From positions 1,116,001 through 1,180,000 of the forward strand of contig QGFZ01000001.1 in NCBI GenBank assembly GCA_003149065.1: a stretch of 64,000 bases of DNA, in the 5' to 3' direction. Origin of the DNA: Ruminococcaceae bacterium R-25. GTDB taxonomy: Bacteria > Bacillota > Clostridia > Saccharofermentanales > Saccharofermentanaceae. Position numbers and translations under genes: made by a program. Positions 28,918-56,946 of the stretch are shown here, one piece after another. Within the stretch, counting starts at the first letter, position 1, and each line of letters opens with the position of its first letter. Below the pieces are notes generated by a model. That model was not told the DNA's origin, did no database searches, and was given only the letters and a program-made list of their open reading frames with translations.

Positions 28918-29649
28918 TCAGACGCAGATATAATCCTTTATCCTGTTATATTTTGAGTCGCCTATTCCGGTGACGTTCTTGATATCCTCTATCGTCTTAA
29001 ACGGATTCTTGGCTCTGTAATCAACGATCGCCTGAGCAGTAACCTCACCGATACCCGGCAGGGTCTTCAGTTCATCTACTGTAGCTGTATTGATATTGAC
29101 TATGCTTATGCCGGTGCTTCCGGTATCTGAACCGCTGCCCTGTTGATTACCCCAGACATATACTCCTTCCTGCCTTATTATGTCACCGCCGTTAAAGCCC
29201 TTCTCGATCTCTGACTTAGACGGGATATAGATCGACATGTTGCCTGTTATCTGGTAAACGAAGTTGATATTATTCACGGAAGCGTCCTCAGTAAGGCCTC
29301 CCGCATCTTCAATGATGTCATTTAACATTACACCTTTAGGAGCTTCGTAGATGCCCGGTTTATTTACTTCTCCGCATATATAGACGCTTATAAGCATAAC
29401 GGTTTCTTTTGCTTTGGCAGGCTTATCGGATGTATCGGAAGGTTCAGTAACATCATCTGTTTCAGAAGCCATAGTGATGCCGGCGCTTTCCGTCACTTGC
29501 GCGCTCCTGCCGTTCTTAAATGAGCTTATGGTAAAATCCCCGCTGCCTTTCAGGACAAACTTATAGAAGGCACTCAGGATTATTACCAGAACGAATGCCA
29601 ATGGTGTTATCAGTTTCTTGATCTTGGTCTTTATGCTTTTCTTGTTCAT
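28918..29649 (-). CDS. comEA: ComEA-like DNA-binding protein (SLBB plus helix-hairpin-helix)
   Basis: 243 aa from ATG 29647-29649; a longer TTG frame runs through the upstream repeat and is rejected. An N-terminal membrane anchor lies at about residues 10-35. An SLBB domain follows (about 80-150: VYICGEVNKPGIYEAPKG, IYIPSKSEI) and a C-terminal HhH pair (IVNINTATVDELKTLPGIGE, FKTIEDIKNVTGIG). ComEA is the surface receptor for transforming DNA. No comEB/comEC follows within the window. Three phased TTGTCG boxes stand just upstream. The gene meets birA tail to tail with no gap. Confidence 0.92.
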   Translation of the reverse strand: MNKKSIKTKIKKLITPLAFVLVIILSAFYKFVLKGSGDFTISSFKNGRSAQVTESAGITMASETDDVTEPSDTSDKPAKAKETVMLISVYICGEVNKPGIYEAPKGVMLNDIIEDAGGLTEDASVNNINFVYQITGNMSIYIPSKSEIEKGFNGGDIIRQEGVYVWGNQQGSGSDTGSTGISIVNINTATVDELKTLPGIGEVTAQAIVDYRAKNPFKTIEDIKNVTGIGDSKYNRIKDYICV

Positions 29650-29671
29650 ACGAAAAGCATACACCCGAGTT

Positions 29672-29711
29672 TTGTCGGTTTTTTGCGACAAAATACGACA
29701 AAAACCGACAA
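29672..29711 (-). promoter_or_regulatory. Three 10-bp-phased TTGTCG boxes plus one inverted copy upstream of comEA
   Basis: On the minus strand TTGTCG occurs at 29706-29711, 29696-29701 and 29686-29691, exactly 10 bp apart. An inverted copy (TTGTCG on the plus strand) is at 29672-29677. A nearly identical triple repeat lies upstream of the tad operon at 51378-51403. Regulatory function is inferred. Confidence 0.6.
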
Positions 29712-51377: not shown

Positions 51378-51403
51378 TTGTCGGTTTTTGTCGGGTTTTG
51401 TCG
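51378..51403 (+). promoter_or_regulatory. Three 10-bp-phased TTGTCG boxes upstream of the tad operon
   Basis: TTGTCG occurs at 51378, 51388 and 51398, exactly one helical turn apart, 68 bp before the first tad gene's ATG. The spacer after the first box (GTTT) is also the same as at comEA (29686-29711). A shared regulator is inferred. Confidence 0.6.
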
Positions 51404-51470
51404 CTTTTATCAAAGGCTATATGGCCCTACAATCCGAAGTATCAAAGGCACTTGGTAAGGAGGTTTGGTC

Positions 51471-52376
51471 ATGGCATTTACTATCAAGATCTACGAAAAG
51501 AACGAATACTTATTCACGCTCTTAAGAAAGAGACTTTCGAGCTTTTTCCCTGATGCCTACATCATCGATCCTTACTATGAGACCGGGGATCAGGACTATA
51601 GGTTCAGCGAATACGAAAAGGTCTTATACGATCCCAGAGACATCAAAAAAGAAGACATTGTTTCTCTATCACCCCCCTTACGACTGACGGATGACGGCGG
51701 CATTATAGACTGCGCCTCGTTTTTACCCTTCATAAGGCAGAGCATTGAATCACCCTCACTTCTAAGACCTGCCACGGGCACGGTCACCGCCGTCCTTCCG
51801 TTCGTCTATTCTGATGTAAGAGACAGATTTATAAGTAATCTCGGAACCGATCTTACAGGCGCTGACTTTAACATCAGGCTTGATTTCACTAGCAGGTTAA
51901 GATCGCTTTGCAGAAGATCAGCAGGTTCTAACATGACTTCGCTTTTAGATGCCTGCAGGTCCAGAAAATTCACACCTGAAGATATCCTCAAATACTGCAA
52001 CATGGATGACTCGGGATTCTTAACACCCGGTGCTACGTCAAATAACGATGACGTTTACGATCTGGGCATTACGAGATCCATTACTCTGATGAACCTCGCA
52101 TCTGACCTCGCCCACTCGAAAACAAGATTTGTAAATGTGGTCGCGGTAATTGAAGGCTTCAGGACCAAAGACCTTCCGGACCTGTTAAGCAGCACGGACA
52201 ATGTCATTTTACTGATGCCCGCAAAAGATGCCGGCGAAGACATCGGAGCAAAAGACCTGATAGAACTTCTGACGAGGACTCTGGGAAGCGAAAGGGTCAG
52301 CGTTACATATGCTGAAGACCTTAAGGATGCAGGTGTTCTCGATGACAGCTTAGCTCCCAGGAGACAGGTCGTATGA
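51471..52376 (+). CDS. TadZ/CpaE-like protein without visible Walker A motif
   Basis: 301 aa from ATG 51471, with AAGGAGG six bases upstream (an earlier in-frame start overlaps the ribosome site). It is first in the tad operon, where the polar localiser TadZ/CpaE stands in complete loci, and overlaps tadA by 4 nt (ATGA). The N-terminal 60 residues resemble a receiver-like fold. The C half (VNVVAVIEGFRTKDLPDLLSSTDNVILLMPA) resembles the MinD/ParA core, but no GKGGxGKS loop is seen, so ATP binding is doubtful. The assignment rests on position and fold-like pattern. Confidence 0.6.
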   Translation: MAFTIKIYEKNEYLFTLLRKRLSSFFPDAYIIDPYYETGDQDYRFSEYEKVLYDPRDIKKEDIVSLSPPLRLTDDGGIIDCASFLPFIRQSIESPSLLRPATGTVTAVLPFVYSDVRDRFISNLGTDLTGADFNIRLDFTSRLRSLCRRSAGSNMTSLLDACRSRKFTPEDILKYCNMDDSGFLTPGATSNNDDVYDLGITRSITLMNLASDLAHSKTRFVNVVAVIEGFRTKDLPDLLSSTDNVILLMPAKDAGEDIGAKDLIELLTRTLGSERVSVTYAEDLKDAGVLDDSLAPRRQVV

Positions 52377-53569
52377 AGGATCAAGCAACAGATATCGTTG
52401 ATATCAAAGAGCAGATCACGTATTGCGTTCTGAACGCCATCTCAAGCGAGTCCGATCCGTCGGATGAAAAACTCAGGCAGATAATATCCGACGTGATATC
52501 AGAGAATACGTCTTACAGGATGAACCTTGAGCAAAAGCGCGAGATGGCAAAGATGGTTTTTAACTCCTTAAGAAGACTCGACGTGATAGAGCCTTTGATG
52601 GAAGATCCTACCGTCACGGAGATAATGGTAAACGGACCTTATAAGATCTTCTTTGAAAGAGACGGAAAGCTGTATAAATCAAATCTTTCTTTCCGCGATG
52701 AAGAATCCTTAAAGACTTGCATCTCATGTTTTTTCGCTAACCAGAACAGGCCTTTAAACGAAGCTAATCCTATTGCCGACTTAAGGCTTCCTGACGGCTC
52801 CAGAGCCAATGCAGTCCTTCCTCCGATATCAAGGGAAACGACAGTAACCATAAGAAAGTTTACCGGTATCACGCATGACATCGTATCGCTCATAAGACAG
52901 GACTTTATAACGGAAGAAGCAGCGAGGTTTCTTGCAGAATGCGTAAGGAATAAAAGGACGATATTTATATGCGGCGGAACAGGCTCGGGAAAGACTACGT
53001 TTTTAAATTCGCTTTCCAATTTCATACCTAAGGATGAGCGAATAGTAACGATAGAAGATTCAGCCGAATTAAAGCTTCAGGGAATCGATAATCTGGTGCA
53101 GATGGAAGCAAGGCTCCCCGGTCCTGACGGCACAGGCGAAGTCAACATAGGAATGATGATCAGAGCATCTTTAAGAATGCGCCCTGACAGGATCATTGTC
53201 GGTGAAGTCAGAGGAAAAGAAAGCGCGGACCTCCTCAACTGCTTAACGAGCGGGCACCCTGGCTCAATGAGCACCGGCCACAGCAACTCATGCTTTGAAA
53301 TGATGGAGCGTCTTACGGCCATGATAATGTCGGGTTCGTCCCTGCCCTACGATGCAATACTTTCGCAGGTTTCGATGGGGATAAACATAATCCTTCACAT
53401 CATGAGAAGCCGCGAAGGAAAAAGATATATAGATGAGATCTGCGAGGTGCTGCCGCCCGAAGATCACGAATATAGACTTAAGACTTTATTTAAAAACAAA
53501 GGAGGTGAAAGACTTGAACGTATCGCAAGTACTGAAGACATCAAAAATGCGATGGCCTACCGCGCGTAA
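52373..53569 (+). CDS. tadA: Tad pilus assembly ATPase (TadA/CpaF)
   Basis: 398 aa, full length. Family blocks: MEDPTVTEIMVNGPYKIFFE, LRLPDGSRANAVLPPIS and TIRKF. Walker A is FICGGTGSGKTTFLNSLS, the Asp box RIVTIEDSAELKLQ, Walker B RPDRIIVGEVRGKES and the His box SGHPGSMSTGHSNS. This secretion-superfamily ATPase powers assembly of Flp pili. Its start overlaps the TadZ-like gene, and its 3' end overlaps the TadB-TadC gene by 56 bp, with the next ribosome site inside it. Confidence 0.95.
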   Translation: MKDQATDIVDIKEQITYCVLNAISSESDPSDEKLRQIISDVISENTSYRMNLEQKREMAKMVFNSLRRLDVIEPLMEDPTVTEIMVNGPYKIFFERDGKLYKSNLSFRDEESLKTCISCFFANQNRPLNEANPIADLRLPDGSRANAVLPPISRETTVTIRKFTGITHDIVSLIRQDFITEEAARFLAECVRNKRTIFICGGTGSGKTTFLNSLSNFIPKDERIVTIEDSAELKLQGIDNLVQMEARLPGPDGTGEVNIGMMIRASLRMRPDRIIVGEVRGKESADLLNCLTSGHPGSMSTGHSNSCFEMMERLTAMIMSGSSLPYDAILSQVSMGINIILHIMRSREGKRYIDEICEVLPPEDHEYRLKTLFKNKGGERLERIASTEDIKNAMAYRA

Positions 53570-55079
53570 AGGCAGTCTCTCCTTTTCCATATTTCTCGCA
53601 AAAACGATCTGGGTCTACCCCATTTTCGTTGCCGTGGTCTACTTTGCATCAGGCCTTTTCATCGCTTCTGAAACAGTAAGACTGGTGCTTGCCATAATCC
53701 TTAGTATCTTCCCGTGGAAAGAAGCCATGAAGAAGATCTATTCAAATAACTACAGGCATATGAGGACGCAGCTTTTAGTCCTTTTGCAGGTGCTTACAAC
53801 GAGCGTGTCGAGCGGTTATTCCATAGAAAAATCACTTCTCCTGATAAGGCCTGTTATCGAGAAGACATTCGGCAAGAGGTCTATGCTCCTAAAGCCTCTT
53901 ATTAACCTTGAGAACAATCTCAAGCTCCATGTAAGTTTGGAAGATGCACTTAATACATTTGCAGAACAGATAGCATTTCCTGAGACAGTTCCGGTATTCC
54001 ATGCTCTAGCCATATCAGGAGAAGTGGGAAATAACAGCCTTTCAATTCTAAGAAGTTCTTGTCAGATGCTGTCTGAACTTAATGCGGTACAAGGGGAAAT
54101 CGCCGCATCCAATGCAGGCAAAAACGCAGAAGCGGCAATACTCTGCGCAATGCCTTTCGGCGTTACTTTTGCGCTCAATTACATGAGCCGCGAATATCTT
54201 GATATGGCCAGGAATACAAGGACAGGATCGGTGCTTCTGGCATTAGCCTTCGGCATATGCACGATAGCCTGTGCAATGCTCTTAAAATTCATGTCGCATG
54301 AACACGGCAGGAAAGCATATAGATCAGAACTTGCGACTAACGTCACAAATGGCAATAAAACAAAAGGAACACCACTGACGGGACTTGTCAAAAAGATCTT
54401 CCCTGCAAGCTTTATAACTGCAAGGCATGAGCTTTTTAACGAGCTTTCGGTAAACCCTGATTATACATATGAGCAATATCTTAAAAAGCAGCTTTTGACA
54501 GGAACGGTTTTCTTTATCCTGGCAGCTGCAATACTAATTAACCTAGGCAAGAATCCTCTCTTTGCGTTCTTTTTTACAGCCGCAATTTTATTAATGGGCG
54601 GATATGAGATCAGGACTGATGTCGAACGCAAGAGAGAGGATCTAATGAGCGATATTCCGCTGTTCCTATGCCTTATATCAACGCTTTTAGAATCAGGCAT
54701 GCAGCTGCCCAAAGCAATATCGATATGCTCGAAAGCATTTGATGAGAATAAGAGTCTGTCTCTTGAAATAAAGAACTTAAGAGCAATGGTATTAAGCGGC
54801 ATCCCGGCTTCCGATGCAGTAGAGAGATTCTCTTTGAGGATACAGATACCGGAAGCCCAAGCAGCGCTCCTCCTTATCGCAAGATACGGAAGGCTCGGAA
54901 CTGCTGAAGTATTGAATATGTTAAACCTGCAGTCACAGGCTTGCTGGAATCTGTGCAGGAACGCTTCAAGGAAAAGACAGGAAAGAGAAGCCCTGGGAAT
55001 GATAATCCCCATGACTCTTGATTTTATAAGCGTCCTTATGGTCGCTATGACACCCGCAATTATCTCACTCGGCATATAA
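53514..55079 (+). CDS. Fused TadB-TadC inner-membrane platform protein
   Basis: 521 aa starting at TTG 53514, six bases after GGAGGTG within the end of tadA. Two type II secretion system F domains are present. The TadB-like half (residues 70-270) has LLVLLQVLTTSVSSGYSIEKSL and EQIAFPETVPVFHALAISGE. The TadC-like half (about 380-515) has DIPLFLCLISTLLESGMQLP and PEAQAALLLIARYGRLGTAE. Hydrophobic helices lie around 25-70 and 225-275 and again at 335-370 and 490-515. TadB and TadC are separate genes in described Tad systems, so the single chain is unusual. Confidence 0.85.
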   Translation: MNVSQVLKTSKMRWPTARKGSLSFSIFLAKTIWVYPIFVAVVYFASGLFIASETVRLVLAIILSIFPWKEAMKKIYSNNYRHMRTQLLVLLQVLTTSVSSGYSIEKSLLLIRPVIEKTFGKRSMLLKPLINLENNLKLHVSLEDALNTFAEQIAFPETVPVFHALAISGEVGNNSLSILRSSCQMLSELNAVQGEIAASNAGKNAEAAILCAMPFGVTFALNYMSREYLDMARNTRTGSVLLALAFGICTIACAMLLKFMSHEHGRKAYRSELATNVTNGNKTKGTPLTGLVKKIFPASFITARHELFNELSVNPDYTYEQYLKKQLLTGTVFFILAAAILINLGKNPLFAFFFTAAILLMGGYEIRTDVERKREDLMSDIPLFLCLISTLLESGMQLPKAISICSKAFDENKSLSLEIKNLRAMVLSGIPASDAVERFSLRIQIPEAQAALLLIARYGRLGTAEVLNMLNLQSQACWNLCRNASRKRQEREALGMIIPMTLDFISVLMVAMTPAIISLGI

Positions 55080-55094
55080 AAGGAGGATTTGACA

Positions 55095-55268
55095 ATGAGA
55101 AAAATCACGAAACGGCAGAATAAGAAAGGTATGGGAACCGTCGAGATCGTAATCATCATCGCGGTCCTCGTAGCATTGGCATTGCTGTTTAGAGCGGGCC
55201 TTACGGAATACGGACAGAAGATAATGGCATTCTGTTTTGACGATTCGAAAATAGCCTCTGCTTTCTAA
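55095..55268 (+). CDS. Flp-type pilin
   Basis: 57 aa with AAAGGAGG seven bases before the ATG. A basic leader (MRKITKRQNKKG) ends in Gly, followed by the mature N terminus MGTVE with Glu at +5 and a 17-residue hydrophobic stretch (IVIIIAVLVALALLF): the class III prepilin signature. It lies directly after the TadB-TadC gene (15 bp). It would be cut by a prepilin peptidase, which is not in this window. It is short and single-copy, with no TadE/TadF pseudopilins here. Confidence 0.85.
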   Translation: MRKITKRQNKKGMGTVEIVIIIAVLVALALLFRAGLTEYGQKIMAFCFDDSKIASAF

Positions 55269-55320: not shown

Positions 55321-56553
55321 ATGCAGATAAAAAAGGGACCCTACGGATATTACGCCATAGAGAAGTTTGACAGTCCGGACAGATTATGCAGTTATGCCGA
55401 AGAGGTAATTGCCGGAAATAAGACAGACTTCTATCTCCGCCCTGTTACCGAGATTTTCGGTTCGGGAGCGATGTGCTGCTTTGAATTTTCAGGATATATG
55501 CAGATAACAGATCCGGAGTTTTCCGTATTTTCTCCGAACAAAAAGACTGCTTCAAAGAAAAAAGATGCAAAGAACTTAAGTTTAAGACGCAAGTCCTGCG
55601 GGGACCTTTTTTACGCTGTTGCCAAACTTCTGGATAATCTCATATCGCCTTCATGCCTGGTCTTGGATCCCAACATGATGTTCACGGATCCTGACGGCAT
55701 TACGGTCAAGATGTGCTGCATTCCGATTAAGAGCGATCCTAATGATCTCTGCATCTCATCTCTTGGTGCATCTAGACTCGAAGACCTTCTAAACTGCGAC
55801 TTCTTTAAAAGCGTTATCACTGACGATGAGAGAAATGCATTAGTATACAGCGTGAAAGAAAACAAGGAAGATTTATTCCTAAAAGTCGCACGCATAATCA
55901 AAGGCATAGATGAAGAACCAAATCCGGCTTTGCCTGAACAAAACACAGAGAGCAAAGTACAAATAACAGGAGCTGTTAAGAATCTTTCCAGGTCTGACAG
56001 AGATCTGATAATTGCAGGGCTTTCTGCATTCCTTTCACTTGCATCGATACTAAACAGGATGCTCCTTCCCTGCTTCCTGTTCTACTTCCTTGCATTAATA
56101 ATCTTTGCGACAACTCTTCTTAATATGAGAAAGAGCAAAGAGAGCATCAAGAAAGAAGAATCTGAAGAAGTATCCAAACAAAGAAGTTCCATTCTTTTTT
56201 CTGATTTACCGCAAACTCAAGACAGCGAAGAAAATCATTTCATACCGCTGACATCAGGAAAGCTGATACTTATATCCGACAGGAATGACGTAAAGAAAAA
56301 CTACTCTGTTTACTTAAGCGAGACCAATATCGGTTCAGACTGCTTTTTGTCTGACATAGTTATCGACGATCCGTTGATAGCGCCGCTTCATGCAGTGATC
56401 AGGCAAAAGGACGGAGCATTCTATTTAGAGCCTTCAAAAGGCTCTGGAAGAACATATATAGAAGACTCTCCTATCGAAAACGGAAGAGCTTATGAGATCA
56501 AATCAGGACAAAAGATAACATTCGGAGAAATTGAATTCAGGTTCAGCAGTTAA
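55321..56553 (+). CDS. FHA-domain membrane protein (DUF6382-like N terminus)
   Basis: A 410-aa protein. The N-terminal domain (1-200; YLRPVTEIFGSGAMCCFEF, LDNLISPSCLVLDPNMMF) resembles DUF6382 proteins linked to tad loci and FHA domains. Two transmembrane helices lie near 230-270, followed by a Lys/Glu-rich linker. The C-terminal FHA domain (315-408) has TNIGSDCFLSDIVIDDPLIAPLHAVIR and a GxxxY fold end; the canonical GR(x)xxx(S) becomes GSD, so phospho-Thr binding may be weak. It ends the tad operon. Confidence 0.8.
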   Translation: MQIKKGPYGYYAIEKFDSPDRLCSYAEEVIAGNKTDFYLRPVTEIFGSGAMCCFEFSGYMQITDPEFSVFSPNKKTASKKKDAKNLSLRRKSCGDLFYAVAKLLDNLISPSCLVLDPNMMFTDPDGITVKMCCIPIKSDPNDLCISSLGASRLEDLLNCDFFKSVITDDERNALVYSVKENKEDLFLKVARIIKGIDEEPNPALPEQNTESKVQITGAVKNLSRSDRDLIIAGLSAFLSLASILNRMLLPCFLFYFLALIIFATTLLNMRKSKESIKKEESEEVSKQRSSILFSDLPQTQDSEENHFIPLTSGKLILISDRNDVKKNYSVYLSETNIGSDCFLSDIVIDDPLIAPLHAVIRQKDGAFYLEPSKGSGRTYIEDSPIENGRAYEIKSGQKITFGEIEFRFSS

Positions 56554-56556
56554 TAC

Positions 56557-56946
56557 ATGAATAAGATTGGGACAATAGATATATCTCGACTAAACTCACC
56601 ACCTGAAAAAGCTGAGTTTGAAACAGCGAAATATTTCGCGGAGTTAGGTAAAGATATCGTATTTATTGATCCAAGCGATATACCAAATCAGCATACGCCT
56701 GACATAAAAATGGATGGTGCTGAATGGGAAATCAAATGTCCGACAGGAGATAGCAAAAGAACTATAGAAAACAATATGCGTAAGGCAGTAAAACAATCGC
56801 ACAATATCATATTTGATCTTAGACATACTAAGCTGTCCGAAAGCAAAAGTATTGCTAAACTTGAGCATGAATTTAAGATTAATACTCGACTAAAAAAACT
56901 ATACATAATTAGAAAAGATCGAACCCTATTATCGTACAAAAAATAA
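56557..56946 (+). CDS. Stand-alone CdiA-CT-like nuclease domain
   Basis: A 129-aa protein. Residues 46-62 read HTPDIKMDGAEWEIKCP: Asp49, Glu58 and Lys60 form a PD-(D/E)xK-like active site. Further blocks (NNMRKAVKQSHNIIFDLRHT, LKKLYIIRKDRTLL) match the C-terminal tRNase domain of CdiA as I remember it. There is no signal peptide, no delivery domain and no immunity gene adjacent. It starts 3 bp after the FHA stop, with only a weak ribosome site, and its codons are AT-richer than the neighbours. It could be a captured toxin domain or a restriction-like nuclease. Confidence 0.7.
   Translation: MNKIGTIDISRLNSPPEKAEFETAKYFAELGKDIVFIDPSDIPNQHTPDIKMDGAEWEIKCPTGDSKRTIENNMRKAVKQSHNIIFDLRHTKLSESKSIAKLEHEFKINTRLKKLYIIRKDRTLLSYKK

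Follow-up and report, generated by a model that had tools for sequence, protein, structure and literature searches.

Three TTGTCG boxes set one helical turn apart precede the tad pilus operon of Ruminococcaceae bacterium R-25, and the same phased boxes recur before genes for DNA uptake and recombination, both elsewhere in this genome and in its relatives. We consider it probable, at roughly two chances in three, that these boxes are tandem activator sites through which a short Spo0A-like regulator governs a competence regulon with a Tad (type IVc) pilus. The window referred to below is the whole 64,000-nucleotide stretch of DNA that we analysed, G000:C1:1116001-1180000 of a 3.07-Mb genome.

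Phased TTGTCG triples precede the tad operon and comEA

The tad-side triple lies on the forward strand at 51378-51403, with its boxes separated by GTTT and then by GGTT. The comEA-side triple, on the reverse strand (29711-29686), has the spacers GTTT and TATT. These positions bear out the earlier note, which had described two triples 21.7 kb apart that share a 10-bp period and the first spacer GTTT and differ at two bases. When up to two mismatches were allowed, we found two phased triples in the window, both of them exact, where 0.01 would be expected (the mean of 100 dinucleotide shuffles); a count of two was reached by none of the 100 shuffles. Pairs with up to two mismatches were ordinary in the window (8 seen, 4.84 expected).

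Both triples are followed by a -10-like hexamer. Read from the sequence, TACAAT (51428-51433, forward strand) lies 24 nt past the last tad box. On the comEA side, TATGCT (29656-29661, reverse strand) lies 24 nt past the last box, separated from the comEA ATG by 6 nt, and an inverted TTGTCGG copy (29672-29678, forward strand) faces the triple. The comEA gene itself, assigned by Pfam through its SLBB and HHH domains, occupies 28918-29649 on the reverse strand; its open reading frame as listed extends to 29733, covering the boxes, and we placed the ATG at 29649.

The boxes recur before competence and recombination genes genome-wide

Across the genome we counted 16 copies of the exact pair, TTGTCGN4TTGTCG, distributed over 10 places; the reversed pattern used as a control occurs once. 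Eight of these places precede comEA, comEC, comM-dprA, recA, the tad operon, a second tad-like operon and two paralogous nuclease-like genes; for comEA, the tad operon, comEC, recA and comM, five places in all, the assignment comes from Pfam. Behind comM lies dprA, and behind recA a RecX-like gene. The two paralogues, of 271 and 266 aa, have no Pfam match, and at C1:955978 the next feature downstream of the pair is an IS110-type element. The promoter scan proposed in the earlier note was therefore positive at comEC, comM-dprA, recA and the second tad-like operon too, and the recurrence of phased boxes before competence and recombination genes supports its suggestion of a regulator shared by pili and DNA uptake. 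That note had also named a dispersed repeat unrelated to promoters as the finding that would speak against it: such a repeat holds two of the ten exact-pair places (C1:1666813 and C2:253227), whereas the other eight precede genes.

Relaxing the pattern changed its value as a marker. A G-anchored triple with up to three mismatches was found 10 times in the genome and never in the control, but the pair with one mismatch barely exceeded its reversed control (30 versus 21), so that only the exact pair is informative. The single word TTTGTCGG was mildly enriched (174 versus 121 for the reversed control). Given this mild enrichment and the weakness of the one-mismatch pair, we excluded lone and relaxed boxes as evidence; the 14 one-mismatch places were followed in part, with C3:107530 left out. 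Same-strand pairs of TTGTCG were spaced by 10 bp in 16 cases, by 20 bp in 10, by 11 bp in one and by 9 bp in none, counted over 245 kb of own-genome sequence made up of the window and of stretches many of which were picked because they carry the motif.

Box and gene set are conserved in relatives

Thirty-four genomes of the same genus contain 352 exact pairs in total (control pattern: 20), and 29 of them have one match or more. Outside the genus, only G037 and G042 among 24 genomes had more than three matches. We fetched 60 arrays, 54 of them from eight genus genomes and six from G037, which belongs to another family. The motif places covered were 7 of 7 in G006, 4 of 4 in G010, 3 of 4 in G017, 4 of 4 in G031, 7 of 7 in G024, 12 of 12 in G022, 12 of 13 in G018, 5 of at least 10 in G025 and 7 of 7 in G037; those of G002 and G027 were left out of the set. 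At a threshold of 1e-4, 45 of the 54 genus arrays precede an open reading frame homologous to the own-genome set, and the nine unmatched ones include L255, which stands before a pilin-like small gene, and two at contig ends. An exact pair precedes tadZ in all eight genus genomes, nuclease-like genes in seven, comEA and recA in five each, comM and TadG-like genes in four each, and comEC in three. In G037, two of the six arrays precede homologues of comM and comEA, and four have no matched gene downstream.

An unguided scan for the exact triple over 84,980 species, one genome each, returned at least 118 stretches, and we examined the 80 that were listed. Homologues of the own-genome set follow 28 of these 80, and every one of the 28 comes from a record titled Clostridia, Clostridiales, Saccharofermentans, Ruminococcaceae or Lachnospiraceae. 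Several belong to contigs of relatives already counted, as with L131 and G006:C7, and the scan is therefore not independent of the set of relatives. The other 52 listed loci come mostly from other phyla, and many are GC-rich tandem repeats as judged by eye. At L082, L090 and L106, from Bacilli MAGs, TTGTCGAA-type triples adjoin an opposite-strand, membrane-protein-like open reading frame of about 410 aa.

We also approached the boxes from the side of a protein family, picking comEC genes without regard to the motif; of the 34 genus genomes, 30 were queried for the family and 28 gave a match. Just upstream of these 28 genes, boxes were spaced 9-11 bp apart in 17 cases and 19-22 bp apart in three, single in six and absent in two. 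At least one box thus stands upstream of 26 of the 28 genes, and a phased arrangement upstream of 20. Box density was 7.14 per kb upstream and 0.28 per kb within the gene. For 22 comEC genes of other families (a count that omits two G042 fragments, L354 and L360), two had boxes 19-22 bp apart, eight a single box and 12 none, with densities of 2.07 per kb upstream and 0.26 within the gene; the 'none' of L337 is uninformative because its sequence starts at a contig end.

The boxes stand at a fixed distance from a -10-like element

We aligned promoter features over 91 arrays: eight from the own genome, 59 from relatives and 24 from 30 loci of the species scan, the latter chosen after matching (the 28 with a gene match plus L088 and L125). 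Exact duplicates were removed and kin remain, so the 91 are not an unbiased sample. TAnnnT starts 23-24 nt past the last box in 50 of them. A second peak lies one helical turn on, with 22 counts at 33-35 nt, 19 of these in arrays that lack the nearer hexamer, and there is a weak rise at 42-45 nt (four positions sharing 12 counts); at the remaining 34 distances the mean is 1.15 counts and the maximum 4. Scored by position, the best -10 match fell at 24 nt in 30 arrays and at 23 nt in 17, compared with a shuffled maximum of 3.2. Taking the hexamer as the -10 element would put the end of the last box near -37. The -35 place shows no TTGACA-like columns in the 91 arrays, and the layout is what would be expected of an activator that touches RNA polymerase at -35. 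Together with the gene content and the conservation in relatives, the -10 spacing makes the boxes look, to judge from sequence, like promoter elements of a competence regulon with Tad pili among its members.

In 24 arrays an ATG follows the -10-like hexamer at a distance of 6 nt (23 arrays) or 7 nt (one array); 25 starts had been counted, and that of L031, a TTG opening only 61 aa, was spurious. These arrays belong to nuclease-like genes (15), comEA (6) and comEC (3). As background, starts opening at least 200 aa fell in 84 of 3880 random 6-nt windows. With the ATG so close to the hexamer, the comEA, comEC and nuclease-like messages are predicted to be leaderless.

The window encodes a Tad pilus, and a second tad-like operon carries the same boxes

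The first gene behind the tad-side triple is tadZ-like (51471-52376, forward strand, as are all genes of this run), with its ATG at 51471 after aaggagg. Its product has no Pfam or NCBIfam match, and its AlphaFold model (pLDDT 73) has as its best Foldseek match 3fkq (E 2.2e-7, TMq 0.44), which we take to be a TadZ; the remaining matches are ParA/MinD-type ATPases. There follow tadA, encoding a CpaF-type pilus ATPase (52373-53569; T2SSE, 4.1e-50), whose best NCBIfam model is TIGR03819 of the TadA family at 255 bits, under its cut-off of 373; a tadB/tadC-like membrane protein gene (53433-55079 as listed, the true start being probably later; T2SSF, 4.6e-9); and a gene for a 57-aa Flp1-like pilin (55095-55268; PF16982, 4.2e-12, above cut-off). 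Three Tad hallmarks, the TadA-type ATPase, the T2SSF membrane protein and the Flp pilin, thus exceed the Pfam cut-offs. From strand and spacing, the genes for an FHA-domain protein (55321-56553; FHA, 6.1e-11) and a 129-aa CdiA_C-domain protein (56557-56946; PF18451, 6.7e-17) are probably part of the operon. The CdiA_C protein has a further match (5.4e-16), to the end of phrog_13257, a phage head-maturation-protease family.

The products of the second tad-like operon have pilin-like N-terminal helices, as judged by eye, and no Pfam TadE match. In the own strain, an IS110-type element (G000:C1:954.6k-956.0k; L032:6594-8004) parts the phased-box promoter from this operon, and beyond the element come a small pilin-like gene, which is intact, and two TadG/TadE-like genes whose products have pilin-like N-termini. 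The insert is missing in the four relatives shown, and in the own strain it may have disconnected the operon from its promoter. The second tad-like operon also encodes a pilin-like protein with a C-terminal match to a CDI-toxin endonuclease-like domain (L032:3722-4729 and L227:1222-2238, both on the reverse strand).

Three further ATPases of the T2SSE family exceed the cut-off, two of them with frames of 560-561 aa (C2:604297 and C1:42676) and one with 377 aa (C2:605829); by length we provisionally take them for PilB- and PilT-type. Their presence means that the Tad pilus is not the sole pilus candidate. A whole-genome scan found no exact phased pair near these three genes. According to the passages of PMC6668835 and PMC8513845 cited here, Micrococcus luteus needs its Tad genes for transformation, and Liberibacter crescens needs them to take up DNA. 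By analogy with that requirement we read the Tad pilus as a candidate competence pilus here; the boxes it shares with the uptake genes suggest that it serves DNA uptake.

Nuclease-like genes are among the most constant members of the set

The two paralogues in the own genome (L037:9902-10717 and L038:10617-11417, both on the reverse strand) belong to a family with at least two copies behind the same boxes in six of the eight genus genomes. Four residues, E149, K164, D181 and E196, are common to all 11 homologues. Aligned by VIA-align, the model of one such protein (pLDDT 87.6) gave Z 8.0, rmsd 2.5 over 100 residues with 6p4w (Bax1), Z 7.3, rmsd 3.0 over 98 with 8gy8 (Bax1), and Z 6.2, rmsd 3.7 over 99 with the Holliday junction resolvase 2eo0; these comparisons re-examine Foldseek's own candidates, and a Z below 8 can reflect a common arrangement. 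In the Foldseek search of the PDB, nothing reached E<=0.001, and the best row was an unrelated macrocyclase. In PHROGs, phage resolvases and endonucleases matched weakly (best 1.4e-5). We provisionally take these proteins as putative PD-(D/E)XK-type nucleases that may act on incoming DNA.

A short Spo0A-like protein is the candidate regulator

The boxes are most likely read by a short protein, G000:C2:689073-689603, that is predicted to carry a Spo0A-type DNA-binding domain and to lack a full receiver. It is the only match to PF08769 (Spo0A_C) in the own genome, at 29.5 bits, just above the cut-off of 25. From its likely start it has 179 aa, of which about 78 precede the DNA-binding domain. 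A profile of the short protein had significant PDB matches only to two Spo0A DNA-binding-domain chains (E 2.5e-12 for 1lq1, and 3.3e-12). The E-R-x-x-R stretch of its last helix aligns with Spo0A, both arginines being present in 11 of 11 sequences and the glutamate in 10. D19 and D50 of the N-terminal part are invariant in the 11 sequences; this part has no significant PDB match, and to call it a shrunken receiver is a guess only. The full-length Spo0A model TIGR02875 does not match the own protein and gives 34.6 and 45.3 bits for two relatives, against a cut-off of 200.

0A boxes occur in 10-bp tandem at abrB and near -35 at spoIIG. The 0A core is TGTCGAA, with Spo0A contacts at G2, C4 and G5, according to passages of PMC3485338. 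The TTGTCG box keeps these contacted bases, which are constant by the definition of the search, and the AA at 0A-box positions 6-7 is not kept in our arrays.

The regulator gene was then compared among genomes. In G037, a phased pair stands about 100 nt before its Spo0A-like regulator gene. The gene close upstream of the regulator is ligA in the own genome and in G042, by eye, and the regulator adjoins a ligA homologue in G018 and G064. Counting the own genome both times, PF08769 matched in 50 of 59 genomes and the profile of the short protein in 57 of 59. Being present almost throughout the order, the protein does not follow the distribution of the motif, and its presence or absence was therefore uninformative as a test of the link. 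Among nine motif genomes from the species scan with competence-type, tadZ or nuclease-like targets, some of them relatives already counted, the regulator was found in seven and was absent from G059 and G063. In G005, which has 18 motif matches, the profile search did not detect the regulator; G005, G021 and G063 also have no clear ligA, the regulator's neighbour, which makes a gap in the assembly likely. In G059, ligA is diverged, no regulator was detected, and a triple precedes a nuclease-like gene. Five other genomes, in which triples precede unrelated genes, have profile matches in open frames of 274-297 aa. The genomes of L082 and L106 have a profile match in a frame of Spo0A length.

Discussion

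We propose that the three boxes of the triple are activator sites arranged in tandem in the tad operon promoter. A short Spo0A-like protein would recognise the TGTCG core, lining up head to tail on one helix face; once bound, it would bring RNA polymerase to the -10 element 23-24 nt on, or in some promoters one turn further, and so replace the -35 element. Through copies of the box at each gene set (tad, comEA, comEC, comM-dprA, recA, the second tad-like, TadE/TadG-like operon and the nuclease-like genes), a single regulator may turn on pilus, DNA uptake and recombination jointly. The boxes would thus serve activation rather than repression, and transformation would be the outcome. For the scheme in its fullest form, in which a receiver-less Spo0A relative has been rewired as the master competence activator, with a Tad uptake pilus, new competence nucleases and leaderless comEA, comEC and nuclease messages, we see about even odds.

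That the motif is merely a dispersed repeat lying near these genes by chance is extremely improbable. The own genome does contain a dispersed intergenic element, some 150 bp long and rich in TTGTCGG words spaced 10-22 bp apart, at five or more places (C1:129.8k, 277.3k, 839.3k, 1666.8k and C2:253.2k), and it accounts for the two exact phased-pair places noted above. The same genes nevertheless stand behind the boxes in different species, the -10 spacing is fixed, and the enrichment upstream of comEC was found without selection on the motif; on these grounds we rejected the repeat as sole explanation. Copies of the element align loosely with one another, and the long upstream region of comM resembles them.

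A regulon of this kind could be real and its boxes be read by another DNA-binding protein. The short Spo0A-like protein is tied to the boxes by resemblance rather than directly, is present also where boxes are rare, and went undetected in G059 despite the triple before its nuclease-like gene. We still think another reader unlikely, since the core and contacted bases match the 0A box as described in the cited part of PMC3485338, triples also occur in the five genomes whose profile match lies in a frame of about Spo0A length, and a phased pair precedes the regulator gene itself in G037. We hold it quite unlikely that the regulon is instead a programme of stress response, repair or adhesion in which the Tad pilus has no part in DNA uptake. 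Such a programme would suit the membership of recA, the constancy of the nuclease-like genes, the restriction of exact pairs before comEC and comM to three and four of eight genomes, and the availability of other T2SSE-family ATPases. Yet comEA, comEC and comM-dprA are uptake and DNA-processing genes, nearly every comEC of the genus has a box upstream (26/28), and the other T2SSE genes have no exact phased pair nearby. We therefore continue to favour a competence regulon with a Tad pilus under the short Spo0A-like protein.

To our knowledge, most Clostridia have no known competence regulator and no demonstrated competence pilus. In searches of open-licence papers we found no account linking Spo0A with competence, the Tad pilus and natural transformation, nothing on natural competence in Saccharofermentans, no competence regulon of Clostridia with Tad and a binding motif, and nothing on 0A-box geometry. 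Because the box marks the whole set in many species of the genus, it points directly to candidate competence genes, an unnamed nuclease-like family among them, and a candidate regulator can be named. If the reading is correct, Tad-driven DNA uptake would extend beyond Micrococcus and Liberibacter, and a sporulation regulator would have been reused.

Known competence regulons include those of Bacillus under ComK and of Streptococcus under ComX and the CIN box, with a pilus of the ComG type. As proposed here, each places the genes for pilus, uptake and recombination under a single regulator; the box, the type of regulator and the type of pilus would all differ in the present case. The Tad systems of M. 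luteus and L. crescens, as in our genome, bring a Tad pilus together with ComEC-type uptake. There the link is a mutant phenotype, and no promoter box common to the genes is mentioned in the cited passages of PMC6668835 and PMC8513845, whereas here the link is a shared promoter architecture in Clostridia. With Spo0A and the 0A boxes of Bacillus and Clostridia, the present system has in common the Spo0A_C domain, a TGTCG core with the contacted bases (as given in the cited part of PMC3485338) and the head-to-tail arrangement of boxes. It differs in that the candidate regulator has no full receiver, the AA of the box is lost, and the targets are competence-type and Tad genes.
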